Shown: positions 13,062 through 48,251 of the stretch, one piece after another
Layout: every line of letters begins with the position of its first letter
How positions within the stretch are numbered: the first letter of the stretch is position 1
Source of the DNA: Catalinimonas alkaloidigena
GTDB taxonomy: Bacteria; Bacteroidota; Bacteroidia; Cytophagales; Cyclobacteriaceae
Assembly: GCF_029504655.1 (NCBI RefSeq)
Contig: NZ_JAQFIL010000001.1
Location: 5,213,001-5,277,000, forward strand
Length of the DNA: 64,000 nt
Direction: 5' to 3'
Program-made: the position numbers and the translations under genes
Notes under the pieces: model-generated
The model's input: the letters and a program-made list of their open reading frames with translations, nothing else
What the model was told of the DNA's origin: nothing
Database searches by the model: none

Positions 13062-13634
13062 TTATATGTTATCCAATGTGTTTCTTTTTCTATCAATGGT
13101 ACTTTTAAACTGAGAAGGTGTCATACCAGTGACTTTTTTAAATTGACTACTTAAATGTGCCGCACTGCTGTATCCTAACTGAAAGGCTATTTGGCTCAGT
13201 GTAAGTTCATCATAGATCAGCAATTCCTTAATGCGCTCAATTTTCTGGCGGATGATATATTGCTCAAGGGTGATGCTTTCTACCGAAGAAAAAAGCATGC
13301 CGAGATATTTATAGTCATAGTTGAGTTGGTCAGCGATCAAATCAGCCCACTTCACATCTAAAACCTCCTGTGAATGATGAATCTTTTGAACAATCAAATT
13401 TTTCATCTGCTCTATCAGTCTGCTTTTGCGATCATCTATAAGCGAAAAACCCACTGTTTCCAGCCCTTCATTTAACCTGCTTTTTTCCTCATCCCCTAAT
13501 CCTTTTTTGAGTTCAATCTTACCCAGTTCCACATTTTGAAAGGGTATCTCTAATTCTTCCATGAGTTGCTTAACCGCTGTTATACAGCGCGGGCAAACCA
13601 TATTTTTAATATGTAGAATTTTACTGTCTGTCAT
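13062..13634 (-). CDS. AraC-family regulator with HMA-like N-terminal sensor (copy 1)
   Basis: Protein of 190 aa, much shorter than classical AraC proteins. Residues 1-70 resemble an HMA domain with metal loop KNMVCPRC (Cys14 and Cys17). A helical linker follows, and residues 90-185 form the AraC DNA-binding domain (two HTH motifs; LTLSQIAFQLGYSSAAHLSSQFKKVTG... near 140-170). The layout suggests a one-component sensor in which Cu(I) or another soft metal binds the Cys pair. It lies directly upstream of the copA operon on the same strand and downstream of an unknown membrane protein. A repeated GATGTACGA element stands about 67 bases before its start. Related copies are at 30128-30988 and 47667-48251, with a fossil at 34213. 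Confidence 0.85.
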   Translation of the reverse strand: MTDSKILHIKNMVCPRCITAVKQLMEELEIPFQNVELGKIELKKGLGDEEKSRLNEGLETVGFSLIDDRKSRLIEQMKNLIVQKIHHSQEVLDVKWADLIADQLNYDYKYLGMLFSSVESITLEQYIIRQKIERIKELLIYDELTLSQIAFQLGYSSAAHLSSQFKKVTGMTPSQFKSTIDRKRNTLDNI

Positions 13635-13701
13635 TTAGATATGGCATTTATCATCATTTAAATAAACACTTTTTAGTGCGTTATGATTTATAAAATTCGG
13701 T

Positions 13702-13719
13702 GTTTGATGTACGAAATTA
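13702..13719 (-). promoter_or_regulatory. GATGTACGA-type operator or promoter element, copy 1
   Basis: The plus-strand text GTTTGATGTACGAAATTA agrees in 16 of 18 positions with 25788-25805 and shares a 12-base core (TTTGATGTACGA) with 30096-30113. All three precede minus-strand genes. Here the element ends 67 bases before the start codon of the HMA-AraC regulator. It is a partial dyad (TTTYG-ATGTA-CGAAA in its best copy). The factor that binds is unknown; an HMA-AraC regulator is the natural candidate. Confidence 0.55.
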
Positions 13720-13766
13720 TTGGCTTATACGGTTTGATGGTTCACTATTTTTATTCAATGAAAATA

Positions 13767-14207
13767 CTACGAAAAAACAATTTTACGAGCGCATATAAAA
13801 CTCAGTATTGGATTGACTATAATAGCCAGGAATGGTGACAGTCCTATATCTAAGAAAGGTACAACAGGCATTTGCTCATTGTAGCTCCAAAAGTCTAGTT
13901 CTACAGCCACCCACTCTGCTGTTAACGAAACTAAGCTGGCCATTATGAGGACGATTAGCAATATTTTAAAATTAAAATTTCTAATCCAGTACTTGTCTTT
14001 GAGGACAACAGCAACAAGGCCGTATATGATGAATGTGAGTACAACATCTCCAATCGTGCATCCGAGGAAGTAGATGCTTTTCATAAAGAGATTGTACTCA
14101 TTATATAAACCGGCATGAAGGTTTTCCCAGATAAAGTTCAGAACGAAAGCTATCAGCGCCATCCATGTTAATAAACTTTTAGCTTTAATTGTCTTAGACT
14201 CCTCCAT
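13767..14207 (-). CDS. Unknown multi-span membrane protein, WE/GLSPFL family (copy 1)
   Basis: Integral membrane protein of 146 aa with four to five hydrophobic segments; I do not recognise a named family. It is a clear paralog of 46229-46759. Shared features are FxxNFIWExxxxxLY near residues 22-35, an acidic residue in the next helix (GDVVLTFIIYG), TAEWVAVELDFWSYNEQMP near 97-115 and GLSPFLAIIVNPILSF near 122-137. Conserved Trp-Glu, Glu-Trp, Tyr and Pro residues within or next to membrane segments suggest a channel, enzyme or chaperone rather than a simple anchor. Both copies lie near an HMA-AraC regulator, which points to metal stress, but no function can be assigned. Confidence 0.65.
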   Translation of the reverse strand: MEESKTIKAKSLLTWMALIAFVLNFIWENLHAGLYNEYNLFMKSIYFLGCTIGDVVLTFIIYGLVAVVLKDKYWIRNFNFKILLIVLIMASLVSLTAEWVAVELDFWSYNEQMPVVPFLDIGLSPFLAIIVNPILSFICARKIVFS

Positions 14208-14217
14208 GTTTAAAGTT

Positions 14218-14248
14218 CAGGAATGGCTTTAATGCAATACCATTCCTG
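14218..14248 (-). terminator. Stem-loop between DUF2911 gene and membrane-protein gene
   Basis: Nine-base perfect arms (CAGGAATGG at 14218-14226 and its complement at 14240-14248) with a 13-base loop, just downstream of the DUF2911 stop on the minus strand. There is no strong T-run after it, so it may be a weak terminator or an mRNA-stabilising hairpin. Confidence 0.45.
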
Positions 14249-14259
14249 CTATTCTGATT

Positions 14260-15214
14260 TTACAGTGATTTCACCTCAAAAGAAACCTTCAGCTTTTCCC
14301 ATACGATAGTTACTTCTGCTGTTGAATTGCCCGTTTCATTCACCGCATAGGTAAGCGCTTCCTGGTTTTCTGATAGTTTCTCAGGGTTCACTTTTATTCT
14401 TACTACATCAAGGGATGGATCATAGTCATCACTCATGTGCTGATCCCAGTTTTTATTGATGATCAACGTCCATTCGTTTTCACCAGGAATAGTGAAAAAA
14501 ACCATATTTTCCTGCTGGAACTTTGGTGTTATTAATCTCTACATCTTCTGAAAAATTGATGGCTGTTGCCCTGTGTGCGCCAGTGGCCCATACTTTGTCA
14601 TATTCTACCAGGCCTCCCCAGATTGTTCTACCCCGCACACTTGGGGAAGAATAATCAATGTGTATGTGTGTATCTCCTGCATTTCCCATAGCTGCCGTCT
14701 TTGGACTCTTGGGTTTAGACTTATCATCATTATCTGCACCATGGGCAGCATGATCGTTTGCAGGCTTGTTACAACCTCTGGAGAACTGAAGGTGAACAAT
14801 CTTCCACATACCTTCCTCTACCTGCATGGAAAGGGTTACCAATCCGGCAGAATTAATCTGCTGGCCTTGCATCTCGCCCTTAATCAAATAATTGCCTCGC
14901 AATAATGTCATCTCTTTGTTGACCAGAGATTCGGCAACTTCAACAGAGAATGTCATCTCCTGCATCTCCTCAATTTCTTTTCCCAAATGACCGTCTCTGT
15001 AGTGCTCCCAGGAATCATCAACCGATCCCTGTTCGTATATTTTTGCTTTTGGAGAGAAAACTGCATTCAACGGCTCCAGATTTTTATCATTTACTGAACT
15101 GACAAATAAGTCCAGCACTTCGTTGGCTGTATTTTTGGGTTTGACTGAATCATTGCAAGAAATCATTAGTACTGATAAAGCCAAAATAGCGGTGGGAAAT
15201 AATTTTTTCATCAT
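14260..15214 (-). pseudogene. DUF2911 lipoprotein with NTF2-like domain, broken by a frameshift
   Basis: Two overlapping frames together make one protein of about 317 aa. The N-terminal part starts with a lipoprotein signal (LFPTAILALSVLMISC) and an NTF2/SnoaL-like domain (residues 25-145). The DUF2911 domain begins at HIHIDYSSPSVRGRTIWGG and runs to GKYGFF, where the frame shifts; it continues as TIPGENEWTLIINKNWDQH and ends at 14260. The shift is at a run of seven T on the coding strand (about 14494-14500): six T would keep the gene open. This could be a true inactivating mutation, slippage during transcription or a sequencing error. DUF2911 proteins are exported Bacteroidota proteins of unknown function. 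The start may be either of two adjacent ATGs (15214 or 15211). Confidence 0.78.
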
Positions 15215-15239
15215 AGATTATTGGGTTAGTTATAAATAT

Positions 15240-16298
15240 TTAAGCAATCGTAATTTCTTCATCCAGATACACCTGCTGGATTAAATTAAGTAGTTCAATC
15301 CCTTCCTTTCTTGGTCGCTGAAATGCTTTCCTTCCTGAAATCAATCCCATACCTCCGGCCCTTTTATTGATCACAGCCGTCTTTACAGCTTCTGCATAGT
15401 CCGAATCACCGGATGATGCCCCTCCCGAGTTGATCAGGCCTATCTTGCCCATGTAACAGTTGGCTACCTGGTAGCGGCACAGATCAATTGGATGATCCGA
15501 AGTATATTTCTCATACATTTCTTTAGAAGTCTTACCAAAATCCAAAGCCTTGAAACCGCCATTTGTTTCAGGCAGCTTTTGTTTGATAATATCTGCCTGA
15601 ATGGTGACTCCCAGATGGTTGGCCTGGCCTGTGAGGTCAGCGGCTGTATGGTAATCCTTGTCCTTGGTTTTGAAGGCTTCATTTCGGGTATAACACCACA
15701 AGATAGTGGCCATCCCTAATTCATGGGCATAAGCGAAGGCTTCTGAAATTTCACGGATCTGCCGGTTTGACTCTGCCGACCCAAAGTATACGGTAGCCCC
15801 AATGGCGCAAGCCCCCATATTCCAGGCATCCTTTACCGTTCCGAATAAGATCTGGTCATGTTTGTTGGGATAGGTAAGCAGCTCATTATGGTTGATTTTT
15901 ACGATATAAGGAATTTTATGCGCATACTTTCGGGCGTTAAGCCCTAATACACCAAAGGTAGAGGCTACACCGTTACAACCTGCTTCCAAACCAAGCTGTA
16001 CAATATTCTCCGGGTCAAAGTAGTCCGGATTGGGGCCAAAAGCGCTCCCAGCGGAATGTTCAATACCCTGATCTACCGGAAGAATTGACAAGTAGCCCGT
16101 GCCTGCCAGGTTACCACTATTATACAATCTTGATAGTGAATTAAGCACCTGCGGATTTCTGTTTGTATTCAGAAAAACCTGATCCAGATAATCCGGTCCG
16201 GGTATGGTAAGCCTTGTTTTGTCAAAGGTTTTGCAGCTGTACTCTAACAGGTATTCAGCCTGATCTCCTAAATATTCATTTATCTTTTTCATATCCAT
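15240..16298 (-). CDS. fbaB: Class I fructose-bisphosphate aldolase (DhnA/FbaB type)
   Basis: Cytoplasmic enzyme of 352 aa that cleaves fructose-1,6-bisphosphate to dihydroxyacetone phosphate and glyceraldehyde-3-phosphate through a Schiff base, without metal. Recognisable segments are [19 protein letters not shown] near residues 73-91, [25 protein letters not shown] near 126-136 and [16 protein letters not shown]. This is the archaeal/FbaB-like aldolase, not the class II enzyme. The ATG at 16298 is chosen because a TTG frame from 16316 would overlap the upstream gene. It lies at the downstream end of the stress block, behind the MFS and CopB genes. Metal independence would be useful under metal stress (inference). 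Confidence 0.92.
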
Positions 16299-16316
16299 TC
16301 TATTTACAGTTGACAA

Positions 16317-17552
16317 TTATTGACGTTTTTTACTTGTTGATTTTAACCTCGGGACGACCAGAACGGTTACAAGTAGTAATACTGTTCCGATGATCGGGTA
16401 TGGCCAGGATTTGCCAAAGGTGTACAACCAAATACCCAAAATAGGCCCCAGTACCTGACCGATGCTATTAACAGATGTTTGTAGCGAAAGATTAGCTCCG
16501 GTATGATTTTTATCAATGAAAGAAATCATAGCGATAAGATTTGGCGTAACCATGGCTCCTCCTACCGCAAAAACGATGATCATAGCGTAGACAAACAAGT
16601 TGTGTGTCCAGAAAGAAAAAGCGAACATGGCCAATGAGGCTATTGCAAAGCCGATAAATAGTTGTGTGTTTATAGACAATTTTTTCTCATCAAGACTGGC
16701 AAAGAGGGGCTGTAGTGCCGCCATGATCAAACCACAAAGCATAAAGCCCAGGCCTATCTGTGAAGTAGTAAAAGTAAGGACATCCTTAGCGTATACGGAA
16801 AAGACCGTTTCAAATAAGGTAACTGCTAATTGAATAACCAATGACATCAGTAACAGTAATATAAAATCTAATCTGATGCTCAATCTTGATTGCTGTACTT
16901 CTTGTAGAATATCAAGGTTACGTCTTTCGGGATTTTTCAACCATCCGATGGTTAGAAACAAAATCAATACCCCTAATAATGCCACCGCAAGGAAAGGAAC
17001 GCTGAATTTATCTAGCAGTAAATGCCCGAAGCTGGTATTAAAATGCAGGTTGGTTTGAGCGAGATAACCACCGATCATCGGCCCGGCTATCACTCCCGTA
17101 CTTACAGCCACCCCGGACCATGCCAAGACTTTCCTTCGCTGCATGCTGTTGGTAATGTCACTGAGGTAAGCATTACCAACGGGGATAACCGAAGATGAGA
17201 AGATCCCTCCAAGGATACGGGCCATGTACAGCATGGTTAAAGAAGTAGCCAGGCCGGTTAATGCCTGCATAACAACAAAACCTGTCAGCCCCATAATGAT
17301 GAGTAGTTTACGACCGAAACGGTCAGATAACTTACCCCAAACTACCGCAAATAATAGTTGAAAAAATGGGTATATGCTGGTAAGGATACCAATGTGATAG
17401 TTGATATCCTCATCCGCCACTACACCGGACTTTAAAGCAAGTCTTTCCGTATAGTAGGGTAAAACGGGCAGCAGTACGCCATACCCGCTCATAACCACAA
17501 AAATACTCAACAGGACAATTATTATCCTGCCAAGGATTTCTCTATTACCCAT
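16317..17552 (-). CDS. MFS efflux transporter (TetA/DHA1-like)
   Basis: Inner-membrane transporter of 411 aa with about 12 hydrophobic helices. The loop between helices 2 and 3 carries MFS motif A (GKLSDRFGRK near residues 72-81). The motif-C-like segment is GVAVSTGVIAGPMIGGYLA near helix 5, typical of drug:H+ antiporters of the TetA/DHA1 group. Substrate unknown. Its start overlaps the stop codon of the CopB-type ATPase (TAATG), so translation is coupled and the two are in one operon. It could export a metal chelate or a toxic organic compound. Confidence 0.85.
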   Translation of the reverse strand: MGNREILGRIIIVLLSIFVVMSGYGVLLPVLPYYTERLALKSGVVADEDINYHIGILTSIYPFFQLLFAVVWGKLSDRFGRKLLIIMGLTGFVVMQALTGLATSLTMLYMARILGGIFSSSVIPVGNAYLSDITNSMQRRKVLAWSGVAVSTGVIAGPMIGGYLAQTNLHFNTSFGHLLLDKFSVPFLAVALLGVLILFLTIGWLKNPERRNLDILQEVQQSRLSIRLDFILLLLMSLVIQLAVTLFETVFSVYAKDVLTFTTSQIGLGFMLCGLIMAALQPLFASLDEKKLSINTQLFIGFAIASLAMFAFSFWTHNLFVYAMIIVFAVGGAMVTPNLIAMISFIDKNHTGANLSLQTSVNSIGQVLGPILGIWLYTFGKSWPYPIIGTVLLLVTVLVVPRLKSTSKKRQ

Positions 17553-19639: not shown

Positions 19640-19651
19640 AATGACTATTTT

Positions 19652-20383: not shown

Positions 20384-20389
20384 CTGATT

Positions 20390-21968: not shown

Positions 21969-21971
21969 ATT

Positions 21972-24862: not shown

Positions 24863-24870
24863 TTGTTGTG

Positions 24871-25719
24871 TTACGTACTACCTGAGCAAATTTCCTCTCC
24901 CTCTTTGATGATTCTTTTGACTCGTGTATGAGAAATGCCCATTTCTTCAAGTAATTCGGGTTTATTGCATAACTCCTTACAAAGCACGATCATCTTATCA
25001 ATCAGCTTTTGCTTCTCAGCCTTTGTAAGGCTGGTAAGACATGTAACAGGGTGCAGACCAGACATATTTATCCGGTCGCTAATGCTTCCTTGCTGTGGAT
25101 AATCCCAACCTATCAGTATTAGACCTGAACATTTGCCATATTGGATGGCATCTTCGGTAAACCGGGTATTGGTCACCACCCAGCCTTCATGAAATTTTGT
25201 CGCGTGTCCTTTGCGCTTTTCCCATTGCTTTTTCACATCCTCAAACCGGGATTTGATATAAAGTGGAATTTTCACATCACACTTATAACCTTGGCGGTTA
25301 TGAAATTTGCACTCCACCATGAAGTGCTGATTATCTTTCTCAGCCTCCACATCTATTTCGTGAGAGACGCAATGACCCTGAATGATTACCCCGACTTTAG
25401 TACGGTACCCCTGATGTTTTAAAATTTCACCTACAAACTTTTCAAAGGGATAACCAGAGGGACCCAGCTCCAGAATCGCCTGCTTGATCTTATACCTACC
25501 TGCTACAGGTTTTGAGTGCTTCCGTAGCATGGAGAATGCCTGGCTGTAGATTTTCTTTGTGGACATACCATCAACAAGCTGCGCTTCAATCTCACTCACA
25601 ATCCGATCAATAACGGCAGAAACTGCCCCTGCCTTTTCAAGGGATTGCCTGAGTTTGGTTGGTGAAAATGGAGCTTTTTCACCGGAAGCCTTGGTTATTA
25701 AAACGGTCTTTTCTGGCAT
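24871..25719 (-). CDS. ATP-cone domain fused to a Mrr-like restriction-endonuclease fold
   Basis: Protein of 282 aa. Residues 1-90 form an ATP-cone (KASGEKAPFSPTKLRQSLEKAG; CELL-type helices; VAGRYKIKQAILELGPSGYP), the regulatory nucleotide-binding fold known from ribonucleotide reductases and NrdR. Residues 95-215 look like a PD-(D/E)xK nuclease of the Mrr type: FEKFVGEILKHQGY, then HEIDVEAEKDNQHFMVECKF, with Asp near 125 and E-C-K near 135-137. The C-terminus (TKAEKQKLIDKMIVLCKELC and onwards) is a helical tail. The pair suggests a nuclease gated by ATP or dATP level. It is the first gene of the RNase-AMP phosphorylase-prs-PPK2 run and is preceded by a GATGTACGA element. Confidence 0.82.
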   Translation of the reverse strand: MPEKTVLITKASGEKAPFSPTKLRQSLEKAGAVSAVIDRIVSEIEAQLVDGMSTKKIYSQAFSMLRKHSKPVAGRYKIKQAILELGPSGYPFEKFVGEILKHQGYRTKVGVIIQGHCVSHEIDVEAEKDNQHFMVECKFHNRQGYKCDVKIPLYIKSRFEDVKKQWEKRKGHATKFHEGWVVTNTRFTEDAIQYGKCSGLILIGWDYPQQGSISDRINMSGLHPVTCLTSLTKAEKQKLIDKMIVLCKELCNKPELLEEMGISHTRVKRIIKEGEEICSGST

Positions 25720-25787
25720 TCAATCTACTTTAACAATTGGATGTTAAAGTTAGAATTTTACACTCGGAGGTTTTTATGATATCTCAC

Positions 25788-25805
25788 TTTCGATGTACGA
25801 AATTA
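25788..25805 (-). promoter_or_regulatory. GATGTACGA-type operator or promoter element, copy 2
   Basis: TTTCGATGTACGAAATTA on the plus strand contains a perfect short dyad, TTTCG-ATGTA-CGAAA. It ends 68 bases before the start of the ATP-cone gene, almost the same distance as copy 1 before the HMA-AraC gene (67). This spacing, and the conserved core, argue for a real control element for the downstream stress operon. Confidence 0.58.
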
Positions 25806-25842
25806 CGTCTCTGATTTCAGCCAACCTTAAGCTACAAATTTT

Positions 25843-29445: not shown

Positions 29446-29786
29446 AAGTCTCTGTTCTCCAAGTCGGGTTCTAATGTTTTTACTTTGACCATCTCACTAA
29501 CCTCTGTGATATAAATAATACCGTCCCCGGAGTGAGCTGTTTTTCCGTTTTGATGTATAATCTCTAGTGCTTTCTTCACCTTCTTTTCGGGTAAAACAAC
29601 TTCCAGTTTTGCTATTTTAGCGTGAGAAAATGGGTGTCTCAAAGACGGAAAATCCTTACGCTCATCGGTATAGTGACCGGTTCCCTCTCCTTCGAAGACA
29701 GTTAAGCAACAAACTCCTTCTTCGCGCAGATGATTTACAATATCAGGTAATCGATCCGGTCTGACGAAAGCCTTTATTTCTTTCAT
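29442..29786 (-). CDS. PII-like protein (second copy, PII-NG type)
   Basis: Protein of 114 aa with the same start as the first copy (MKEIKAFVRP) and the same PII layout: EGEGTGHYTDERKDFPSLR for the T-loop region, VVLPEKKVKKALEIIHQNG, then SGDGIIYITEVSEMVKVKT. The GlnB tyrosine is missing. Here the gene is tied by overlaps to a SHOCT protein upstream and a universal stress protein downstream rather than to a pump. That suggests it senses energy state (ATP/ADP) for the stress operon rather than nitrogen (inference). Confidence 0.83.
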   Translation of the reverse strand: MKEIKAFVRPDRLPDIVNHLREEGVCCLTVFEGEGTGHYTDERKDFPSLRHPFSHAKIAKLEVVLPEKKVKKALEIIHQNGKTAHSGDGIIYITEVSEMVKVKTLEPDLENRDL

Positions 29787-29995
29787 TTTTGTAACGTCTT
29801 TTTTATGTCTTCATACTCTTCTTTGCTGATTTCACCTTTGGCATACCTTTTTTTCAAAAGGTCTAATGGTGTTTCTTTTATCGTTCTTTGTCCGGGTATA
29901 TCCCAAGGGGTTGCAAAAATCCAAATGATGAAAATCACCCAGATCACCCACCAGATGATGTGCATACCCCAATAGTGTCCTTCAAACCAATGCAT
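29783..29995 (-). CDS. SHOCT-domain small membrane protein
   Basis: Protein of 70 aa: one membrane helix (HIIWWVIWVIFIIWIFATPW) followed by a C-terminal SHOCT motif (PLDLLKKRYAKGEISKEEYEDIKKTL near 43-68). SHOCT is a short oligomerisation domain. It is the first gene of the run that continues with the PII-like and stress proteins, with its stop overlapping the next start. A GATGTACGA element lies about 100 bases upstream. A close relative in form is at 53287-53490. Confidence 0.8.
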   Translation of the reverse strand: MHWFEGHYWGMHIIWWVIWVIFIIWIFATPWDIPGQRTIKETPLDLLKKRYAKGEISKEEYEDIKKTLQK

Positions 29996-30095
29996 GATAT
30001 TTAATTTTATGGTTTCAAATAATTTATCAACCCTTGATCACTGATTGTTATTCAAAATTACGAGAAAGTACGGCTCTCTATTTTCGAAATCTTGT

Positions 30096-30113
30096 CTTTG
30101 ATGTACGATATAT
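30096..30113 (-). promoter_or_regulatory. GATGTACGA-type operator or promoter element, copy 3
   Basis: CTTTGATGTACGATATAT shares the 12-base core TTTGATGTACGA with copy 1. It lies 100 bases upstream of the SHOCT gene and just behind the stop of an HMA-AraC gene. The match is weaker outside the core than between copies 1 and 2, and the spacing differs by about 33 bases. Confidence 0.48.
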
Positions 30114-30127
30114 TGTTCATAAAGTGG

Positions 30128-30988
30128 TTACCTTTTTTTTGTATTTTCTTTTTCATTCAACTTGTTAGAACTCCTGAATAATGCCTTGTTTTGTTGATTG
30201 CTATTGTCAATGAGTAGTCCTTTCAGGCCATCTTTTGTTTCTATACCATAAATAACAGACTTGCCTGCTGCATCTTCATTTTCATCAAACCGGTAGAACT
30301 CTGAAATATTCAATTCCTCAATTTGAAAGCTGGCACACAGATCCTTACATTCCAGACAATCTTCCTTCCTGTTGAAATTATAGGTGTAGCCTTTTTCCCT
30401 TAAGTCGCCCAGTGCTTCAGATAAGTTCTTGTAATACCGGTTCTCGTTTCTCATTACTTCTTTATAATCAGATACAGACAGACCGGTAACACGCTTAAAT
30501 TGACTGGATAGGTAATGGACGGAACTGTATCCGAGCTTAACCGCAATCTCACTTAAGTTCAGTTCATCATACTTTATCAGCTCTTTTACCCTGTCCACTC
30601 TTTTGTTTATGTAGTAGGTCTCTATCGTAAGCCCCTCAATTTTTGAAAAGAGCTTGCTAAGAAAATTGTAATTTTTACCAATTTCGTGTGCCAGAAAATC
30701 AGACAACATCACCTCTTTGGTAGATTTTTCAAGGATTTCTATATAGTGTTGAATTCCAAGCTTAATCTTTTCCATCAGGATTTCTTCTTTGTCTTCAAGA
30801 AGTTCAAACCCATAAGTATTTAACCTGGACGCGATTTTGTCCTTGTTCAGGGCCTCAGGCACTTGTATTGTAGCATGCCCAAGCCGGATCGTTGAAATAA
30901 TTGCTCCGAGTTCCTCTAATTCATTTCGTACAACCAGAATGCATCTCGGGCACACCATATTTTTAATATTCAGATTTAATGTTTTCAT
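30128..30988 (-). CDS. AraC-family regulator with HMA-like sensor and C-terminal extension (copy 2)
   Basis: Protein of 286 aa. The HMA-like domain carries KNMVCPRC (Cys13 and Cys16). The AraC domain follows (RVDRVKELIKYDELNLSEIA near 128-147; LGYSSVHYLSSQFKRVTGLS). Unlike the other two copies it has a further 95 residues, with the Cys cluster CLECKDLC near 208-215, a small domain (KSVIYGIETKDGLKGLLID) and a basic tail. The extension could be a second metal or redox site. It sits between the stress operon and the His-rich secreted protein gene. A short palindrome about 30 bases upstream may be its own operator. Confidence 0.83.
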   Translation of the reverse strand: MKTLNLNIKNMVCPRCILVVRNELEELGAIISTIRLGHATIQVPEALNKDKIASRLNTYGFELLEDKEEILMEKIKLGIQHYIEILEKSTKEVMLSDFLAHEIGKNYNFLSKLFSKIEGLTIETYYINKRVDRVKELIKYDELNLSEIAVKLGYSSVHYLSSQFKRVTGLSVSDYKEVMRNENRYYKNLSEALGDLREKGYTYNFNRKEDCLECKDLCASFQIEELNISEFYRFDENEDAAGKSVIYGIETKDGLKGLLIDNSNQQNKALFRSSNKLNEKENTKKR

Positions 30989-31228: not shown

Positions 31229-31696
31229 CTAATTGAGGAAGGATTGAATAAAAATACGAATATGGTTACCACTAACCGGTGGTGGCAGATTGGTATATAA
31301 AAACGGGAGTAATTGCTGATTAAAAGTTTCAACCTCAAAATCTATGGCGTACACCTGATAAAGCACGTGAAAGATGGGAGTCTCAGCCGCTATTTGCTTT
31401 AGCTCATATTTGATTAATGAGGCATAGAGGTTATTCACTACTTCATCACAACACTCATCTTCCTCGCTATCATCATGGCTATGCTTATCATCGTGATGAT
31501 GATCAGTAGCGGCTTTGTTATGATTATGGTCATGTGTTTTTTTTGGGTGAGGATCAGCTTCTTTAACCATAGCAGGATAATTCCCCCACGATATTAATCC
31601 TAAATCACATAGCGCATCGCATACAAATACACTGATAAACCCTGTAAGGAGCAGGGTTACTATGTATTGTTTGATGTTATGCAATTTTCTTATCAT
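31229..31696 (-). CDS. His-rich secreted protein, HYC_CC_PP-like (copy 1)
   Basis: Exported protein of 155 aa from the ATG at 31696. A signal or anchor segment (IVTLLLTGFISVFVCDALC) is followed by a strongly His/Asp-rich part (KKTHDHNHNKAATDHHHDDK), then ECCDEV. The C-terminus is LPPPVSGNHIRIFIQSFLN, nearly identical in its last ten residues to 46967-47419 and close to 37502-37921, a clear HYC_CC_PP protein. The CC pair, PP and FxQSFL tail are kept, while the HYC motif is not. Likely a periplasmic copper/zinc binder beside its HMA-AraC regulator; function unproven. Confidence 0.65.
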   Translation of the reverse strand: MIRKLHNIKQYIVTLLLTGFISVFVCDALCDLGLISWGNYPAMVKEADPHPKKTHDHNHNKAATDHHHDDKHSHDDSEEDECCDEVVNNLYASLIKYELKQIAAETPIFHVLYQVYAIDFEVETFNQQLLPFLYTNLPPPVSGNHIRIFIQSFLN

Positions 31697-31752
31697 GACC
31701 ATTGGCAGTGATACTCTACTATAACATAAGTACATGGTTTAGGGTGGTATTT

Positions 31753-34212: not shown

Positions 34213-34407
34213 ATGAGGACTGTGATCACTTTATATATCAAAAACATGGTTTGTGACCGTTGTATCATGATGGTAGAACAGCTTTTCCATCAAGCAGGAT
34301 TGCCCCCCCTGTCTGTTAGCCTTAGTGAGGTAAAAATTGAAGGAGAAGCATTGACATAAGATCAAAAAGCGCAACCTCATGACTTAATGACAAAAAAAAG
34401 GTTTTGA
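34213..34407 (+). pseudogene. Fossil HMA domain of an HMA-AraC regulator
   Basis: An ATG at 34213 opens 48 codons that match the N-terminus of the HMA-AraC regulators: LYIKNMVCDRCIMMVEQLF, with the Cys pair 14/17 kept (CDRC). A TAA at 34357-34359 interrupts; after it the same frame continues with recognisable HMA sequence (DQKAQPHDLMTKK) to a second stop at 34405. No AraC part follows. The gene has lost its DNA-binding half. The remaining bases to 34633 show no gene. A short free HMA peptide could still be made, but decay is the simpler reading. Confidence 0.7.
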
Positions 34408-34633
34408 AAGAACATAAGCATTCGTCCGGAATCACTGTAGCAGGAAGCGCAAATCAATGTTTTTCATTCAGCTCTTTCAAAACAAGAATTCATACATAAT
34501 AGACATAATACTATACAGCTTACTCAAGCTTGTCTAAATACTTTTGAAGGAAATTTCTAAAGAGATAATAATCATGCATTTCAATCTCAAAAAGACCTAT
34601 ATGACATGATTATAAGGCTAAAATGAGTAAGTG

Positions 34634-35212
34634 ATGAGATACATTAAAAAATATGGTTGGGTTCTGGTGCTGGCTATTTCGCTAATGGCAGGCAGACAGT
34701 CAATAGCGCAACAAAGCTATGTACTTTCTTCTGATCAGCAGTTGAAGGTAGAAGGCACTTCTACCATTCATGATTGGGACATGATATCTGATAAAGCCAC
34801 GGGCAATGCAAAGATTGAATTGAATGCCGACAATATCACAGATATCAACTCATTTGCTGTCAACCTGCCTGTTATTTCCTTAAAAAGTGGCAAAGGAAGC
34901 ATGGACGACAATGCTTATGAGGCACTCCTGGCAAAGCAATATCCGCAAATACAATTTGAACTGACGAAGGTAGAAAACATTACAGGTCAAATGATCAAGG
35001 CAGAAGGTAAAATCACTATTGCCGGAACCGCTCGCGTGATTCTGCTTCAAGTCAATTACAAGGTTTCGGAGGGGGAGATTCTTTTTAGCGGGGGATTTCC
35101 CATCACTTTCACACAATATAAAATTGACCCTCCAAAAGCCATGTTTGGAACAATCAAAACTGGCGATGAACTACAAATTTCTTTTGAAGCAACTTTTAAG
35201 TTAATAAACTAA
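34634..35212 (+). CDS. YceI-family periplasmic protein
   Basis: Exported protein of 192 aa (ATG at 34634; a GTG three bases earlier is possible). A signal peptide (WVLVLAISLMAGRQSIAQQ) precedes the YceI lipocalin-like fold: SYVLSSDQQLKVEGTSTIHDW, LPVISLKSGKGSMDDNAYEAL, YPQIQFELTKVENI, GKITIAGTAR and YKIDPPKAMFGTIKTGDELQI. YceI proteins bind lipid-like, often polyprenyl, ligands; copies in copper clusters are common, with an unclear role. It starts a plus-strand run with the porin-like gene 13 bases later. Confidence 0.88.
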   Translation: MRYIKKYGWVLVLAISLMAGRQSIAQQSYVLSSDQQLKVEGTSTIHDWDMISDKATGNAKIELNADNITDINSFAVNLPVISLKSGKGSMDDNAYEALLAKQYPQIQFELTKVENITGQMIKAEGKITIAGTARVILLQVNYKVSEGEILFSGGFPITFTQYKIDPPKAMFGTIKTGDELQISFEATFKLIN

Positions 35213-36494: not shown

Positions 36495-36506
36495 ACAGGG
36501 GAAGAT

Positions 36507-36534: not shown

Positions 36535-36552
36535 TGAATACTGATTTACAAA

Positions 36553-36747
36553 ATGGACAAGCTTGAATACTGTAAAGAGATTCTTGAAAAAGTGAGTTTT
36601 GATAAAGAGCTTTTAAGGAAGGAGTATGAAAAAGCCTTGATATCTCTTACTGATGAGAAAGCGGATTTACTAGATCAATGGTATAAAGAAAAGTTTGAGA
36701 ATAGTTACCGCGAGTCATCAGATGACAACAGGACCGATAAAAACTAA
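36553..36747 (+). CDS. Small charged cytoplasmic protein, unknown
   Basis: Protein of 64 aa, helical and highly charged (LEYCKEILEKVSFDKELLRK and KYEKALISLTDEKADLLDQW-like stretches), with no signal or membrane span. I do not recognise a family; small proteins of this shape occur in Bacteroidota beside YceI genes. The stop overlaps the start of the next gene (TAATG), so translation is coupled and the frame is likely real. Confidence 0.6.
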   Translation: MDKLEYCKEILEKVSFDKELLRKEYEKALISLTDEKADLLDQWYKEKFENSYRESSDDNRTDKN

Positions 36748-37337: not shown

Positions 37338-37501
37338 AGGTGTTAGTTGAATGAATTGCTTAAAGGCGGTATTACCTTTGAGAGGAAGGTATGTCGGAGT
37401 GAAATTTCATACATTTAAAACAAGATATTGAACAGAATCTGGAATCATTTAATCTTAATTTTACGTTTCACAAACTATTAACAAGGACGAAGATCAACTT
37501 C

Positions 37502-37921
37502 TTGAAAAAATTAATCTCCATATCGCTACTATTCATCTTGCTTATCGGTAATTCCGGTTTGGCAGTAGCTACTCATTATTGTGGAGGATTGGCCGTGGAA
37601 TCACAATTTGTTCTCGGTCATACCAAATTAAACTGCGGAATGTCCGATATGGACAAGAGTTGTGAAACCGGTTCGTCAAAAGAAGAGCATACCAAGAAAA
37701 AACCTTGTTGTGAAAATGAGTATCAATCTCTTGAGCTGGAAGATGAATTTAAACCTCAGGTTATTGGTAGTTCTTTGAATTTAGAATTCGTAGCTGCTTT
37801 TGTTATAACTTTTACAAGCAGTGCAAATGCTTCTAAAGCTGATAAAGCAAAGTATAAAAATTACTCCCCTCCGCTGATTGAACGTGATATACCAGTGTTC
37901 GTTCAATCCTTCCTTATTTAA
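37502..37921 (+). CDS. HYC_CC_PP family protein
   Basis: Exported protein of 139 aa that shows all three hallmarks of the HYC_CC_PP family: THYCGGLAVES near residues 28-38, KKPCCENEYQ near 60-69 and YSPPLIERDIPVFVQSFLI at the C-terminus. The start is a TTG at 37502, since no in-frame ATG lies nearby; an AAGGA-like site stands about 8 bases before it. Signal peptide: ISISLLFILLIGNSGLAVA. The family is found beside CusA/CusB genes of Bacteroidota, as here (CusA follows after about 100 bases). A periplasmic copper role is likely but unproven. Confidence 0.82.
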   Translation: MKKLISISLLFILLIGNSGLAVATHYCGGLAVESQFVLGHTKLNCGMSDMDKSCETGSSKEEHTKKKPCCENEYQSLELEDEFKPQVIGSSLNLEFVAAFVITFTSSANASKADKAKYKNYSPPLIERDIPVFVQSFLI

Positions 37922-38023
37922 GCATTTCATTCAATTGATCGTGATCAAGGCTTAGCTCTTTAGAGCCTTGGGGCATTATTACTATGCCTTTTTAAATCAA
38001 TTCAAAAGTTGAATGTAAATAAC

Positions 38024-43092: not shown

Positions 43093-43093
43093 G

Positions 43094-44884
43094 ATGAACG
43101 CAAATAAAAAAATAATAATCATAGCACTGTCAACACTGGCAATAGGTTTAATGCTGGGTTGGTTGATTTTTGGTGGTTCATCATCCGAAAGTAAAATGGA
43201 TGATGAGCACCAGCACACTACAGAAATAGCAGGAGAGACCGTGTGGACTTGCTCCATGCATCCTCAGATCCGTCAGGGTGAACCTGGAGACTGCCCTATC
43301 TGTGGCATGAACCTTATTCCTTTGGAGGATGATCAGAATGAAGTACTTGATCCCATGGCAGTAAGTATGTCGCCTACCGCCATGCAACTGGCTGATATCA
43401 GAACGGCTGCTGTAGGTACCATGGATCCTGTAAAGTCGGTCAGATTGAACGGAAAGGTACAGGAAGATGAACGATTGGTTTTTTCTCAGTCTTCCCATAT
43501 ACCGGGCAGGATAGAAAAGCTGATGGTCAATTTCACCGGTGAGTTCGTAAGAAAAGGGCAGGCCATTGCGTATATATACTCTCCGGATTTGGTTACTGCT
43601 CAGGAAGAATTATTTGAAGCGCAAAAAATTAAAGAGACACAGCCACAATTATTTAAATCAGCACGGGTAAAACTCAAAAACTGGAAGCTTTCAGACAGCC
43701 AGATAGATAAAATATTAGAAAGGGGCACCCCTTCTGATGAATTTCCAATCACGGCAGATATTTCAGGCTATGTGTTGAGCAAAAATGTAAATGTGGGTGA
43801 CTACATTAAGCGAGGAGAGCCCATTTATGAGATTGCGAATTTATCCCGCGTATGGGTGATGTTTGATGTGTATGAGTCGGATATGCCCTGGATAAATAAA
43901 GGAGACCAGGTGCAGTTCACAGTTCAATCACTGCCGGGACAAACATTTGAAAGCAAGATAAGCTTTTTAGATCCGGTAATTGATCCAAAAACCAGGGTAG
44001 CCAAAGCACGGGTAGAAATGCCCAACAAAGACAATCAGCTAAAACCTGAAATGTTTGCATCCGGTACGGTAGAAGCTATATTGCCCAAAAAATCAAACAA
44101 CATAGTAGTTCCCAAAACTGCTGTTATGTGGACAGGCAAGCGTTCGGTAGTTTATGTAAAAAACACTACCGCTAGTGGAGTAAGTTTCATGATGCGTGAT
44201 GTGACGCTTGGGCCAGGTTTGGGTGACAGCTTTATCGTGGAGAGTGGCCTTGAAGAAGGGGAAGAGATAGCAGTCAATGGTACCTTTAGCATTGATGCGG
44301 CAGCACAGTTGGCTGGTAAGCCAAGCATGATGAATCCGGAAGGAGGCCCGGCTATGACAGGGCATAACCACGGGGGTATGGACATGCCAGCTTCATCAGA
44401 CCAGGTCATGAAAAAAGAGACCAAGCCAGTGTCAATTAGTCAGAAGGCGAAAGAAGCATTGCGGCCCCTTTATACTGAATACCTCAAATTTAAGGATGCC
44501 TTAACGACCGATGAATTTGATCAGGCTCAAAAAGCCGCTTCCGATCTCAAAACAACACTGGATAAGGTGAATATGTCTGCTTTTACCGGTGAGTCACACA
44601 ATGCCTGGATGAGCTATAGCAGTGACCTGAAAAATGCATTGCAACATGTTCAGCACCTTAAAACGATAGCCGAACTACGAACTACATTTCAGCAGGTATC
44701 TGAAGGAATGATTGCCATGACCAAAACCTTTAACCCATTGGATCAGACACTGTACGTTCAGTTTTGCCCAATGGCAGATGATAATAAGGGGGCGAATTGG
44801 TTGAGTACCGAAGAGGAAATCCGCAATCCCTACTTCGGGGAATCTATGCTCACTTGTGGGGAGGTACAGGAAAATATCAAGTAA
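43094..44884 (+). CDS. cusB: CusB-like adaptor with metal-binding domain and C-terminal DUF3347
   Basis: Periplasmic adaptor of 596 aa. An N-terminal membrane anchor (IIIIALSTLAIGLMLGWLIF) is followed by a heavy-metal-binding domain (TCSMHPQIRQGEPGDCPICG near residues 52-71), then the adaptor core (VKSVRLNGKVQEDERLVFSQ; a hairpin near 150-200; barrel and membrane-proximal parts to about 420). A His/Met linker (MTGHNHGGMDMPASS) leads to a DUF3347 domain (residues 455-596) with FCPMADDNKGANWLS and IRNPYFGESMLTCG. The Cys, Met and His ligands suggest copper capture at two places. The fusion is typical of Bacteroidota. Confidence 0.9.
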   Translation: MNANKKIIIIALSTLAIGLMLGWLIFGGSSSESKMDDEHQHTTEIAGETVWTCSMHPQIRQGEPGDCPICGMNLIPLEDDQNEVLDPMAVSMSPTAMQLADIRTAAVGTMDPVKSVRLNGKVQEDERLVFSQSSHIPGRIEKLMVNFTGEFVRKGQAIAYIYSPDLVTAQEELFEAQKIKETQPQLFKSARVKLKNWKLSDSQIDKILERGTPSDEFPITADISGYVLSKNVNVGDYIKRGEPIYEIANLSRVWVMFDVYESDMPWINKGDQVQFTVQSLPGQTFESKISFLDPVIDPKTRVAKARVEMPNKDNQLKPEMFASGTVEAILPKKSNNIVVPKTAVMWTGKRSVVYVKNTTASGVSFMMRDVTLGPGLGDSFIVESGLEEGEEIAVNGTFSIDAAAQLAGKPSMMNPEGGPAMTGHNHGGMDMPASSDQVMKKETKPVSISQKAKEALRPLYTEYLKFKDALTTDEFDQAQKAASDLKTTLDKVNMSAFTGESHNAWMSYSSDLKNALQHVQHLKTIAELRTTFQQVSEGMIAMTKTFNPLDQTLYVQFCPMADDNKGANWLSTEEEIRNPYFGESMLTCGEVQENIK

Positions 44885-44885
44885 A

Positions 44886-45017
44886 ATGAAAGAATGCTGT
44901 AAAGCGGGGGATGAACAAAAGCCCTCAAAAATAAAGAAAACTGTAAGTCGGACCTTATGGTCTGTACTATTCATCATCATCATTACTTTATCTATTATTC
45001 AAATTTTGAACCTATAA
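44886..45017 (+). CDS. Tiny Cys-rich single-span protein
   Basis: Protein of 43 aa starting two bases after the cusB stop: a polar head with CC (MKECCKAGDEQKPSK), a basic stretch and one membrane helix (WSVLFIIIITLSIIQIL). Similar tiny proteins with an N-terminal CC pair are common behind cusB in Bacteroidota. The CC pair could bind Cu(I) at the cytoplasmic face; role unknown. The frame is supported by tight spacing and by sensible protein composition. Confidence 0.65.
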   Translation: MKECCKAGDEQKPSKIKKTVSRTLWSVLFIIIITLSIIQILNL

Positions 45018-45028
45018 ATTTTAACATC

Positions 45029-45601
45029 ATGAAAAAGCAAATTTTAAGTGTAGCACTCGGATTAAGTCTGTTGGCAGTTGGTGCAAAGGCACAAAGCCAT
45101 GATCATAGTAAGATGACCGAAGGAAATCATCACAGCACAAGTGCAACTTATCAAACGCCTGAAGCTTTTCAGCAGCAGCTTGCTGAAGTTTACCAGGCAA
45201 GTCTGGATTTAAAAGAAGCTTTTGTAGCTTCCAGCAAGACCCAGGTGAAAGAGGCTGTAAATCCCGTGCAGGAAGCTTTATCTAAAGTGGACATGAAGCT
45301 TCTGAAGGACCATGCACACATGGACTGGATGGATCACCTCAAAACAATTAAAAGTAATTTGGAAACCGTAGAAAAATCCAATGCTATAGATGAGCAGAGA
45401 AAAGGCTTCACCCATTTTAGCGAAGCACTCTATCAAAGCATTAAAGCCTTTGGTATAGGTGATGAAGAAGCCTATTATCAGTACTGCCCAATGGCTAATA
45501 ACAACAAAGGTGCTTACTGGCTCAGCGACAATAAGGAAATCCGCAATCCTTACTTCGGTGATAAGATGCTGAAGTGTGGAACAGTCAAAGAAAGCCTGTA
45601 A
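45029..45601 (+). CDS. DUF3347 periplasmic protein
   Basis: Exported protein of 190 aa from the ATG at 45029, with signal peptide (ILSVALGLSLLAVGAKAQ). After a short His-rich head (HDHSKMTEGNHHS) comes DUF3347, which matches the C-terminal domain of the CusB protein just upstream: YCPMANNNKGAYWLS and IRNPYFGDKMLKCG near the end. The shared Cys-Pro-Met and Lys-Cys positions are likely metal ligands. A free copy of the CusB domain may act as a periplasmic copper carrier that docks on the pump (inference). Confidence 0.87.
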   Translation: MKKQILSVALGLSLLAVGAKAQSHDHSKMTEGNHHSTSATYQTPEAFQQQLAEVYQASLDLKEAFVASSKTQVKEAVNPVQEALSKVDMKLLKDHAHMDWMDHLKTIKSNLETVEKSNAIDEQRKGFTHFSEALYQSIKAFGIGDEEAYYQYCPMANNNKGAYWLSDNKEIRNPYFGDKMLKCGTVKESL

Positions 45602-45615
45602 GGCTGAGTATTTCA

Positions 45616-45641
45616 AAGAGGCACTCTTTTTTGTGCCTCTT
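45616..45641 (+). terminator. Stem-loop terminator after the DUF3347 gene
   Basis: Nine-base arms AAGAGGCAC (45616-45624) and complement (45633-45641), with loop TCTTTTTT. It is placed 14 bases after the stop codon; there is no long T tail after it, so termination may be partial. Confidence 0.65.
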
Positions 45642-45667
45642 AATCCACCCTATAAAATCCTGTTATC

Positions 45668-46117
45668 ATGAAAAAAAGCAAAAAGAACAACACAAGCGGT
45701 GTAATTACTACCATTGCAGCTTTATCCGTTTTGGTTATTGCTTTATTTGGCTTCACCTATTTCAATTTCACTAAGCTGAATGAAGATAATCAGATCCTAC
45801 CTGTACAACAGGCACAGGATATAGAGCAGGAGGGGATTTCTCCTGAACTGGTATGCATGGTCAATGATGCCTATATGGGAGGTAAGAAGCAAATTCCTGT
45901 CGCCTATGAAGAAAAAACATACTATGGCTGCTGTCAGATGTGTGTAGGCAGAATTCAGAATGATGCTCAGGTAAGATACGCCACTGATCCTTATTCGGGA
46001 GAGGTAATAGATAAATCAGAGGCTTTTATTGTACTCCAATCCGGCAGTGACAATCAAGTCTCTTATTATAAATCAGAAGCCACTTTTCATCTTCATCACC
46101 AGTCCCTGACAAAATAA
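45668..46117 (+). CDS. Membrane-anchored YHS/TRASH-like Cys-rich protein
   Basis: Protein of 149 aa with a single N-terminal membrane anchor (TIAALSVLVIALFGFTYFNF) and a periplasmic domain holding VCMVNDAYMGGKKQIPV near 76-92 and YYGCCQMCVGRIQ near 98-110. The spacing of Cys-x-Asn, then Cys-Cys-x-x-Cys after a Tyr-Tyr, is like YHS/TRASH metal-binding domains. The remainder (YATDPYSGEVIDKSEAFIVL) also fits. Probably binds copper near the Cus system; exact family uncertain. Confidence 0.7.
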   Translation: MKKSKKNNTSGVITTIAALSVLVIALFGFTYFNFTKLNEDNQILPVQQAQDIEQEGISPELVCMVNDAYMGGKKQIPVAYEEKTYYGCCQMCVGRIQNDAQVRYATDPYSGEVIDKSEAFIVLQSGSDNQVSYYKSEATFHLHHQSLTK

Positions 46118-46228
46118 GGATACTTTTTTATCAACTGAAGATATATAATATGGTTTATCAACCAGCAATGCATCCATAAATTATTATTATAATATTTGTA
46201 ATGTCTATAACACAATAAAGTCTATTAC

Positions 46229-46759
46229 ATGGATAGCTTGGAACCTAACATATTCATCGTACCAGTAGCTGCTCTGGTCCTGTTAGTAACAGGTTATGTG
46301 TATTTCTTAAGGAAAGTGTCTGATCAAACAACATATAAGAAGTTGGTAATCCATATACTGATTTTGGCTTTTCTGTTTAATCTGGTTTGGGAAGTTCTAC
46401 AAGGACCTCTTTATGAAGGTTTCCAATACAATATTAAGCATATTTCAATTTGTGCACTAGCCTCAGTGGCTGATGCTATGTGGGTGATGCTACTTTACTA
46501 TATTTTTGCCCTGATTTACAGAGATTTTTTTTGGATTCAGAAGTTAAAAAAAAAACGTATTGTATTAGTAATTTTGGTTGGTGGAATGGGGGCAATTCTA
46601 TCTGAAATGAGTCATGTCTCTGCTGACCATTGGGCTTACGCTGAAAGCATGCCCATCATTCCTGTTATTGAAGTTGGCCTTTCCCCATTCTTACAGTTTT
46701 TAGTTTTACCCATTTTGATTTACCTGATAAGTAAATACTTTTTGAAAGCCTATGGATAG
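46229..46759 (+). CDS. Unknown multi-span membrane protein, WE/GLSPFL family (copy 2)
   Basis: Membrane protein of 176 aa with about five helices, paralogous to 13767-14207 but with one more N-terminal span. Shared: FLFNLVWEVLQGPLYEG near residues 50-66, ASVADAMWVMLLYYIFAL, LSEMSHVSADHWAYAESMPI near 126-145 and VIEVGLSPFLQFLVLPILIY near 147-166. Conserved Trp-Glu, Asp, Tyr, Met-Pro and Gly-Leu-Ser-Pro positions suggest a specific function. Both copies lie within about 1 kb of an HMA-AraC regulator; this one is in the copper block. Not assignable to a known family by me. Confidence 0.66.
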   Translation: MDSLEPNIFIVPVAALVLLVTGYVYFLRKVSDQTTYKKLVIHILILAFLFNLVWEVLQGPLYEGFQYNIKHISICALASVADAMWVMLLYYIFALIYRDFFWIQKLKKKRIVLVILVGGMGAILSEMSHVSADHWAYAESMPIIPVIEVGLSPFLQFLVLPILIYLISKYFLKAYG

Positions 46760-46966
46760 GCTCAGTTAGTCTGACAGGGAATGACAATACTAGAGTGGAA
46801 TTTTAGATATTATGTTTATTTGTTGTAAGTCAGCTCCATATTTTGTGTAGAAAGTAGTAATTAAGGTTAAAGGGGTTTCTAATTGAAATGTAGATTAGTT
46901 TACCTTAACTTAATTATATAACTTTTATCACCCTCTTTAGTTTTATAATAATCAATTGTACAGAGG

Positions 46967-47419
46967 TTGCGAAGAAAAAATAACATATCACGAATAAATA
47001 TTGCCAGTTCTTTACTGGTTCTTTATGCTTGCTTTGGGAGCATTAGTTTTAACTGTGTTATTGGTATATGTTTTTGTCATAGTGAGATATTTAATAAGTC
47101 CGATACTCATTCAAGCGTTTCTCATGAGATTCATGATGCCACTCATGCTCATGGAGATATGGACGATAAGCTTCCGTATGATCATGCTGAAAAATGTTGT
47201 AATGAGTTTTCAGAATCACTGATCGGAAAGGAACTGGTACTTAAAGACAATTCATCTGAAAGAACAAAAACCTCTCAGGCATTTCTTCCTCTTTTCATTT
47301 TGTCCTATCGGATAATGCGTAATAGTAGTTTGGAATCTGATATTCCAAACATCAGGTACAAATATCCCCCTCCTAAAGTGCCTGACATACGGATATTTAT
47401 CCAATCTTTTCTCAATTAG
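46967..47419 (+). CDS. His-rich secreted protein, HYC_CC_PP-like (copy 2)
   Basis: Exported protein of 150 aa with signal-like start (INIASSLLVLYACFGSIS). A His-rich middle (HSSVSHEIHDATHAHGDMDD) leads to KCCNEF near 76-81 and a C-terminus YPPPKVPDIRIFIQSFLN, sharing the last nine residues with 31229-31696. The start is probably the TTG at 46967, preceded closely by AGAGG; no ATG stands in a useful place. It lies between the unknown membrane protein and HMA-AraC copy 3. Confidence 0.62.
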   Translation: MRRKNNISRINIASSLLVLYACFGSISFNCVIGICFCHSEIFNKSDTHSSVSHEIHDATHAHGDMDDKLPYDHAEKCCNEFSESLIGKELVLKDNSSERTKTSQAFLPLFILSYRIMRNSSLESDIPNIRYKYPPPKVPDIRIFIQSFLN

Positions 47420-47666
47420 CCATCGCTATATCATTTCTTGGATAGCCTGGGACTGCTATATCTCATAGCGAAGTAAATTTATATTGCTAACCACAGATGC
47501 ATTATACAGTGTGAGCGTGCGGGTTTTTTCGCGGCTCTTATGCTGTTAATAAGATAGTTGGTTACAAAGCATCCTAATATTTTCTTCCATATCCCGTCTG
47601 GCTATCACATTGTCTTTTTTAAACTACAAAAGCCTAAGCAGAAAGCACTGGTTAAATGATACCGTT

Positions 47667-48251
47667 ATGAAGAAAACGAAGCTGCATATAAAGAATATGA
47701 TCTGTCCACGTTGCGAAACAGTCATCCGCATTGAGATGAAATCTTTAGGAATCAAAGTGATAGACTTCAGACCCGGTTATGCTACAGTCGTAATCCCTGA
47801 TTCAGTTAACCTCACTACTTTGGAGAAAAAACTTGACAACCATGGATTTGAACTGTTAAACGACCCGGAGAGCAAGTTGGTTGAGCAACTGAAATCTGCT
47901 GTCCTGGATTACTTGCTGCTTCAGGAAACTGTGGCAGGGCAAAAAAAAGAAATACCAATTTTTTCTGCCTTTCTCATCGCTCAGGTAGGAAAGAACTATG
48001 CACATCTAAGCAAGTTTTTTTCAAAGCACGAAGGCAGGACATTGGAAAGTTACTACATCCATTTGCGAATAGAACGGGTAAAAGAACTTTTGGATTATGG
48101 CGAACTCAATGTAAGTGAAATTGCCAGAAAACTGGGTTATAGTAGCGTACATTATCTATCCGCCCAATTTAAGAAAGTTACCGGCATGTCAATTTCTGAT
48201 TATAAGAAGAACGCAGAAAAGATAGGCAGGACTTATCTCAACAGGATTTGA
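47667..48251 (+). CDS. AraC-family regulator with HMA-like sensor (copy 3)
   Basis: Protein of 194 aa from the ATG at 47667 (an earlier in-frame TTG would add an unrelated tail). HMA-like residues 1-70 hold KNMICPRC (Cys13/Cys16) and YATVVIPDSVNLTTLEKKLD; the AraC domain follows (RVKELLDYGELNVSEIARKL near 138-157; YSSVHYLSAQFKKVTGMS). Closest to copy 2 in sequence, without its C-terminal extension. It is just upstream of the multicopper oxidase gene on the same strand, with the 33-nt conserved element between them, so control of that promoter is plausible. Confidence 0.85.
   Translation: MKKTKLHIKNMICPRCETVIRIEMKSLGIKVIDFRPGYATVVIPDSVNLTTLEKKLDNHGFELLNDPESKLVEQLKSAVLDYLLLQETVAGQKKEIPIFSAFLIAQVGKNYAHLSKFFSKHEGRTLESYYIHLRIERVKELLDYGELNVSEIARKLGYSSVHYLSAQFKKVTGMSISDYKKNAEKIGRTYLNRI

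Follow-up and report, generated by a model that had tools for sequence, protein, structure and literature searches.

How copper is sensed, and how copA is switched on, in the Bacteroidota is the question raised by a 64,000-nucleotide stretch of Catalinimonas alkaloidigena DNA (contig NZ_JAQFIL010000001.1, positions 5,213,001 to 5,277,000; the whole stretch is called the window below), in which three genes, R1, R2 and R3, encode proteins joining an N-terminal HMA-type domain to an AraC-type DNA-binding domain. Neither AraC regulators nor one-component metal sensors are new kinds of protein, and copper sensing has been worked out in Proteobacteria, Firmicutes and Actinobacteria. A sequence-only reading of the window proposed a family of metal sensors with dedicated membrane and periplasmic partners. 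The analysis reported here, which rests on sequence comparison and a predicted structure, indicates that R1 to R3 probably belong to a phylum-wide family of one-component Cu(I)-sensing regulators, most likely activating copA and other metal-island promoters through a direct repeat, and this predicted operator is the main new result.

The three genes are intact, as that reading had it, with MVCPRC in R1 and R2 and MICPRC in R3. In the R1 and R2 regions the open reading frame lies on the minus strand only. HTH_18 scores 66.8 bits in R1, 61.0 in R3 and 51.0 in R2 (Pfam cut-off 33.6), and HTH_18 and HTH_AraC are the sole Pfam families above cut-off, so that a MerR-type DNA-binding domain, the trait of CueR, is not seen in any of the three. 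The Pfam HMA family (PF00403) gives no match to R1–R3 up to an E of 1. A profile built from 25 family members matches HMA domains in the PDB (ATP7B at 1.8e-10, bacterial copper ATPases, CopZ at 7e-4) and also AraC-type domains, with no listed PDB chain matched over both domains. The confident AlphaFold2 model of R3 (predicted local distance difference test, pLDDT, 90.2) has a beta-alpha-beta-beta-alpha-beta unit, a long helix and two helix-turn-helix (HTH) units, and in Foldseek it matches AraC DNA-binding domains (best 2k9s) and CopZ-like proteins separately, CopZ 2qif reaching a template modelling (TM) score of 0.72 by its own length. The N-terminal domain thus has a ferredoxin-like fold, MxCxxC at the first loop and similarity by profile to HMA domains of solved structure. 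An alignment of 87 near homologues, most of them close to R3, shows the M-x-C-x-R-C motif with M in 87, the first C in 86, R in 86 and the second C in 87. Compared with CopZ/ATOX1 and the HMA domains of copper ATPases, fold and MxCxxC are alike, but in HMA-AraC proteins the motif is CxRC, its Arg nearly invariant, and the domain is joined to a DNA-binding one and missed by the Pfam HMA model. Compared with the AraC/XylS proteins AraC, MelR and SoxS, the two-HTH DNA-binding domain is shared, whereas the sensor is an N-terminal HMA-type domain, with no cupin or other effector domain. Ada likewise joins a metal-binding cysteine domain to an AraC-type DNA-binding domain, but there the domain is a zinc methyl-acceptor rather than HMA and the signal is DNA alkylation.

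The claim that each protein ends with its AraC domain stands for R1 and R3 but not for R2, which runs on for about 100 further residues with similarity (39% over 87 residues) to a small protein that occurs on its own; R2-like lengths (262–310 aa) occur in 15 of the 120 best listed R3 homologues. This extra part (window 30128–30430, minus) has neither a Pfam nor an NCBIfam match, and it is also found as a small separate protein in the L050, L051 and L053 clusters (L053:6092–6433), where it has no Pfam match, its relative in L107 having no NCBIfam match. The fourth copy, said to keep only its HMA half, does so: 48 codons run to a stop, the stretch 34231–34341 aligns with R1 residues 7–43 (43%, 1.9e-5), and tblastn of R1–R3 against the window found no adjoining AraC half.

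The HMA-AraC proteins make up a large family of bacterial switches that has been little described. At a match strength of at least 1e-20 the architecture is present in 193 of 392 sampled genomes of the phylum, and a protein search gave 1211 relatives at E 0.001, the best 120 of which bear generic names only (AraC family, helix-turn-helix, YesN/AraC, hypothetical). Eighty named loci come mainly from Bacteroidota; a few lie on Balneolia and Ignavibacteria-type contigs, and two are in metagenome-assembled genomes that bear proteobacterial labels; no relative was found in the viral contigs searched. A literature search over titles and abstract openings found no description of HMA-AraC regulators, and earlier reports may still exist. 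None of 148 genomes of the phylum has a CueR above cut-off. MerR-type proteins near CueR (E 5e-28 or better, a cut that was our own choice) occur in 9 of 71 genomes with HMA-AraC versus 8 of 77 without, and the CsoR family in 7 of 71 versus 38 of 77, 30 of those 38 being in one family. CsoR-family proteins are found, then, mainly where HMA-AraC is absent. The expected job of the HMA-AraC proteins, one-component control of copA, is that of CueR (MerR family) and CsoR, both of which have other folds.

What the family regulates is suggested by its neighbours. Forty sites were sampled, one per genus, from the listed best matches, and so lean to strong matches; each was paired with a control region 50–60 kb away on the same contig, and 15 metal-island neighbour families were chosen from the window and the named loci. 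A gene of at least one of these families lies within 3 kb at 30 of the 40 sites and in none of the 40 controls. Within 3 kb of the sampled sites a CopA-type ATPase is found in 24, a small HMA protein in 12, a HYC-type gene in 5 and a His-rich gene in 1. Three of the named loci were dropped for want of a clear regulator open reading frame, and among the remaining 77 any such gene occurs in 51 (CopA 24, HYC 20, small HMA 18, DUF3347 13, His-rich 11). The usual partner of HMA-AraC is the copper ATPase CopA, which the sequence-only reading had not named as such, and 43 of 50 CopA genes within 3 kb of a regulator lie downstream on the same strand.

The gaps between a regulator and the next same-strand metal gene hold a common element. 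De novo motif search over 53 such loci gave a log-likelihood of 155.7, versus 68 and 52 for shuffled gaps, and the motif, approximately AAATTnTRTAAatctttTccAAAATTnTRTAA, is made of two copies of one half-site in direct repeat with a 21-bp period, close to the I1–I2 spacing of AraC and, as in the AraC/XylS family, beside the core promoter. The repeat is followed by 22 nt of little conservation and then by a TAnnTTTG box, which we take to be the −7 element that promoters of Bacteroidota carry. All of the top 33 sites by score are oriented towards the gene. In a held-out test a matrix trained on named loci only scored above 17 in 24 of 40 sampled loci versus 1 of 40 controls, training and test loci having only one or two 40-mers in common, in two loci. 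The matrix from a first split of the training set had fixed on the reverse register with poor separation, and strand-specific training was used instead; a strict consensus pattern gave no convincing genome sites (15 matches versus 9 for the reversed control). On the window alone, de novo search at width 16 returned an unrelated word, and at width 34 it reached 121 versus 101–108, with likely sites mixed with others. In R2/R3-type loci elsewhere the arrangement is the same with a slightly different half-site (AAATATCATACATC).

The downstream half-site ends presumably about where a −33 element would be expected, and by column information the motif has no conserved −33 box between repeat and −7 box. 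Activation is the most likely outcome because this half-site ends 22 nt before TAnnTTTG, at about the −33 position. The N-terminal HMA domain would take Cu(I), or perhaps Ag(I), through MxCxRC, perhaps handed on by a CopZ-like protein; the long helix would relay the change to the AraC-type domain; and the regulator, presumably as a dimer and in a stoichiometry that is likewise presumed, would bind two half-sites (approximately AAWTnYRTAMATC) 21 bp apart on one DNA face and recruit polymerase at promoters without a −33 box, turning on copA and other metal-island genes. It is unlikely that the same regulator at the same site instead represses copA until copper releases it. A site beside a −7 box could also block polymerase, and several metal sensors, among them CsoR and CopY, are repressors; against this, the repeat stands where a −33 box is missing, as in activator-dependent promoters, and AraC proteins bound at such a position are usually activators.

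A model calibrated on 18 sites was run over the same 392 genomes, among which related genomes are not independent. At E 0.01 it finds sites in 123 of 193 genomes with the regulator versus 9 of 199 without, and at 1e-3 in 92 of 193 versus 1 of 199. In 15 families having both kinds of genome the site is present in 82 of 122 with the regulator versus 1 of 41 without, a difference matched by 0 of 20000 shuffles, and in one family the counts are 15 of 15 versus 0 of 8. These numbers bear on the notion that the repeat is a copA promoter element, or some other regulator's site travelling with CopA, while HMA-AraC does something else. The site does include a −7-like box and is also found ahead of non-copper genes and, in L276, of another AraC-type gene, but CopA is present in 343 of the 392 genomes, and those bearing it have a site (E 0.01) in 112 of 172 with the regulator versus only 5 of 171 without. 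The site thus seems to go with the regulator rather than with copA itself, since it is rare in CopA-bearing genomes that have no regulator. Moreover, 69 of the best listed sites (own genome left out) were compared with a subset of the regulator places; 30 are no more than 2 kb from one of these, and 28 of the 30 are on its strand and downstream of it. Such a promoter element or travelling site is accordingly very improbable.

Several observations weigh against regulation of copA by HMA-AraC through this repeat. No site passes threshold in 60 of 172 genomes with both regulator and CopA, and sites are scarce in some families (0 of 3 in f15, 16 of 39 in f24). At E 0.1 sites occur in 53 of 59 relatives, 38 of which have the regulator by the stricter search, and the relative G441, which has no regulator match at 1e-25, has sites as strong as 2e-6. 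In the C. alkaloidigena genome the window copA site comes only fourth (E 0.09), and the sites ranked 2 and 5 stand before genes without an evident link to copper. Among 20 strong sites that are not near that subset of regulator places only 7 precede copA (6) or a multicopper oxidase gene (1); the next gene is a cysteine-less HMA-AraC paralogue at one, an AraC-type gene at one and, by eye, a similar gene at another, and one site has no open reading frame, most of the remaining targets presumably being small stress-type or secreted proteins (we assume these stress-gene names, for L284–L293, from sequence alone). Lastly, the 80 regulator upstream regions (set A) gave no motif clearly above two shuffles. 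A family-wide rule placing the operator in the promoter of the regulator itself was rejected, the gapped-word signals coming from a Hymenobacter stretch judged to be a neighbour's coding sequence; a 10-mer common to R1 and the L004 copy was also set aside, being at chance level in other regions.

Whether the signal is copper at all turns on the cysteines. The 117 loci, named and sampled together, keep both in 112 cases, with Ser at the first position in 4 and 1 case unclear; the named loci were picked with motif patterns, which biases their counts. At 1e-12, a setting loose enough to admit ordinary family members too, 52 of 392 genomes have relatives of the cysteine-less paralogue; inspection of 30 loci showed 29 that lack any MxCxxC and form one fully supported clade (L294–L322), and the thirtieth, L323, reads MVSLRC, with the second Cys only. 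Same-model operator sites lie in 17 of the 29 cysteine-less loci. It could be argued from this clade, which does without the motif beside the same sites, that the HMA domain serves chiefly for structure or dimerisation and that the signal is a partner protein, redox state or a soft metal other than copper; the near-constant cysteines elsewhere, and linked genes that are copper ATPases, CopZ-like proteins and copper-island genes, make this quite unlikely for the family. The clade, which has stress-type genes among its possible targets, suggests rather that a former metal sensor came to serve a different signal with its operator type kept.

In the window the calibrated model finds two sites only, before copA and before R1. 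A second matrix was built from six R2/R3-type sites picked by eye, none from the window; its seven best window sites are all upstream of genes on the correct strand, while six shuffled windows reach 8.7–13.5. Three of its training loci are orthologues of the site before 29995, so the 42.7 of that site is no independent test, though the block is conserved in L050, L051 and L053, including TAAWTTTG. A match at 15171 (15.3, copA-type matrix) is within shuffle range (maximum 16.2) and was not used. R1, R2 and R3 would each bind a site of this kind.

Table. Regulator genes, predicted operators and metal-island genes of the window (positions in the window; matrix, weight-matrix score).
Feature	Position	Strand	Remarks
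R1, HMA-AraC regulator	13062..13634	minus	190 aa, MVCPRC
R2, HMA-AraC regulator with extra C-terminal domain (about residues 184–270)	30128..30988	minus	286 aa, MVCPRC
R3, HMA-AraC regulator	47667..48251	plus	194 aa, MICPRC
Fossil, HMA half alone, then stop	34213..34359	plus	MVCDRC
Predicted operator and −7 box before copA	12960..13022	minus	direct repeat, 21-bp period, then GAATTTTG; 16.4 bits, window E 7e-4
Predicted operator before R1 (possible autoregulation)	13660..13721	minus	11.3 bits, E 0.03; second weight matrix 20.7
Predicted operator (core 30082–30115) and TAATTTTG box before SHOCT-protein gene 29783–29995, downstream of R2	30048..30115	minus	matrix 42.7 (no independent test)
Predicted operator before HYC_CC_PP gene leading RND efflux genes	37400..37433	plus	matrix 28.8; copA-type matrix 15.0, within shuffle range
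Predicted operator before 24871–25719 (ATP-cone and Mrr_cat protein)	25774..25807	minus	matrix 27.5
Predicted operator before small open reading frame 57694	57588..57621	plus	matrix 18.9
Predicted operator between fossil and YceI-like gene 34631–35212	34483..34516	plus	matrix 18.0; copA-type matrix 14.4, within shuffle range
Predicted operator before gene 58831–59211 (clusters with DUF302 proteins)	58672..58705	plus	matrix 14.5, just above shuffle maximum 13.5
Weak operator-like repeat before multicopper oxidase gene	48252..48285	plus	matrix 9.7, within shuffle noise
CopA-type copper P1B ATPase, downstream of R1, same strand	10658..12922	minus	TIGR01511 613 bits, cut-off 397
Multicopper oxidase, copper-resistance type, downstream of R3	48357..50684	plus	TIGR01480 406 bits, below cut-off 479
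His-rich protein, directly upstream of R2	31229..31735	minus
His-rich protein, directly upstream of R3	46967..47419	plus
HYC_CC_PP family protein, first gene before RND efflux genes	37502..37921	plus	77.9 bits, cut-off 28
WE/GLSPFL membrane protein, beside R1	13767..14207	minus
WE/GLSPFL membrane protein, near R3	46229..46759	plus

The whole 7.9 Mb genome has five full-length HMA-AraC copies, two of them outside the window (C1:333604 and C1:1767993), the latter reading MVSLRC with its first cysteine lost. Genome-wide, the top-ranking site (34.1 bits, E 2e-7) immediately precedes another CopA gene, whose identity with the window CopA is 69%; this second gene is megabases from the two solo regulators on the contig and about 1 Mb from the window. 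Trans control of this second copA is implied, since its site is far from any regulator gene. Elsewhere, on contig C6 of G296 at about 33–67 kb (L272, L273), eight operator-model matches lie in a 35-kb stretch beside an HMA-AraC gene, which suggests that a whole island may be under HMA-AraC control. Behind one strong predicted operator of the window stands the protein at 24871–25719 (minus) with ATP-cone and Mrr endonuclease-like domains; a similar-looking open reading frame lies near the L057 regulator.

The neighbours claimed within the window are there: a GLSPFL gene by R1, a His-rich gene by R2 and both kinds by R3. Calling them HYC_CC_PP-like holds for 37502–37921, the one gene above the cut-off of that model (NF047658), but not for 31229–31735, at 21.7 bits, nor for 46967–47419, which has no match. 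Taken at face value they would make a dedicated new system of regulator, own WE/GLSPFL membrane protein and own His-rich periplasmic protein, and this describes the window; in addition, a His-rich or HYC-type gene lies directly upstream of the regulator in 6 of 6 fusion-type loci inspected (L050, L051, L053–L056). Such genes are enriched over the 0 of 40 controls, but they are near a minority of the family only, so that the His-rich association holds for part of it. No GLSPFL gene lies within 3 kb in any of the 117 loci, sampled or named, although 4 of the 80 named loci have one some 3.6–5.4 kb from the regulator. As a general partner the GLSPFL protein was rejected, its association being local, and a dedicated system of this make-up is highly improbable. 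Profile, model, neighbours and operator association lend strong support to the wider claim that a regulator family with a metal-binding type of domain sits in metal loci.

Apart from these genes, two further features of the window were seen by eye. The 105-aa open reading frame at 57154–57471 (plus) resembles the start of a 564-aa protein of L053 (2198–3892) and appears truncated. Two apparent pieces of one amino-acid permease, 53494–53928 and 55212–55544, flank a transposase-like gene (54230–55156), and a further transposase-like gene lies at 55580–56647.

With the Cu(I)-sensing activator taken as the probable function of R1–R3, a broader picture can be drawn, for which the balance tips only slightly in favour. 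HMA-AraC proteins may be the main copper regulators in much of the Bacteroidota, in place of CueR, CsoR or CopY, and may share one operator code in which a 21-bp direct repeat replaces the −33 box. From there the family may have radiated into trans-acting solo copies on chromosomal copA, island copies with slightly altered half-sites, fusions with a further small domain and the cysteine-less clade, now on stress genes. That clade would be a natural case of a metal sensor turned to another signal, and the sensor family, its operator and the list of target promoters together would make copper control in the Bacteroidota directly testable.

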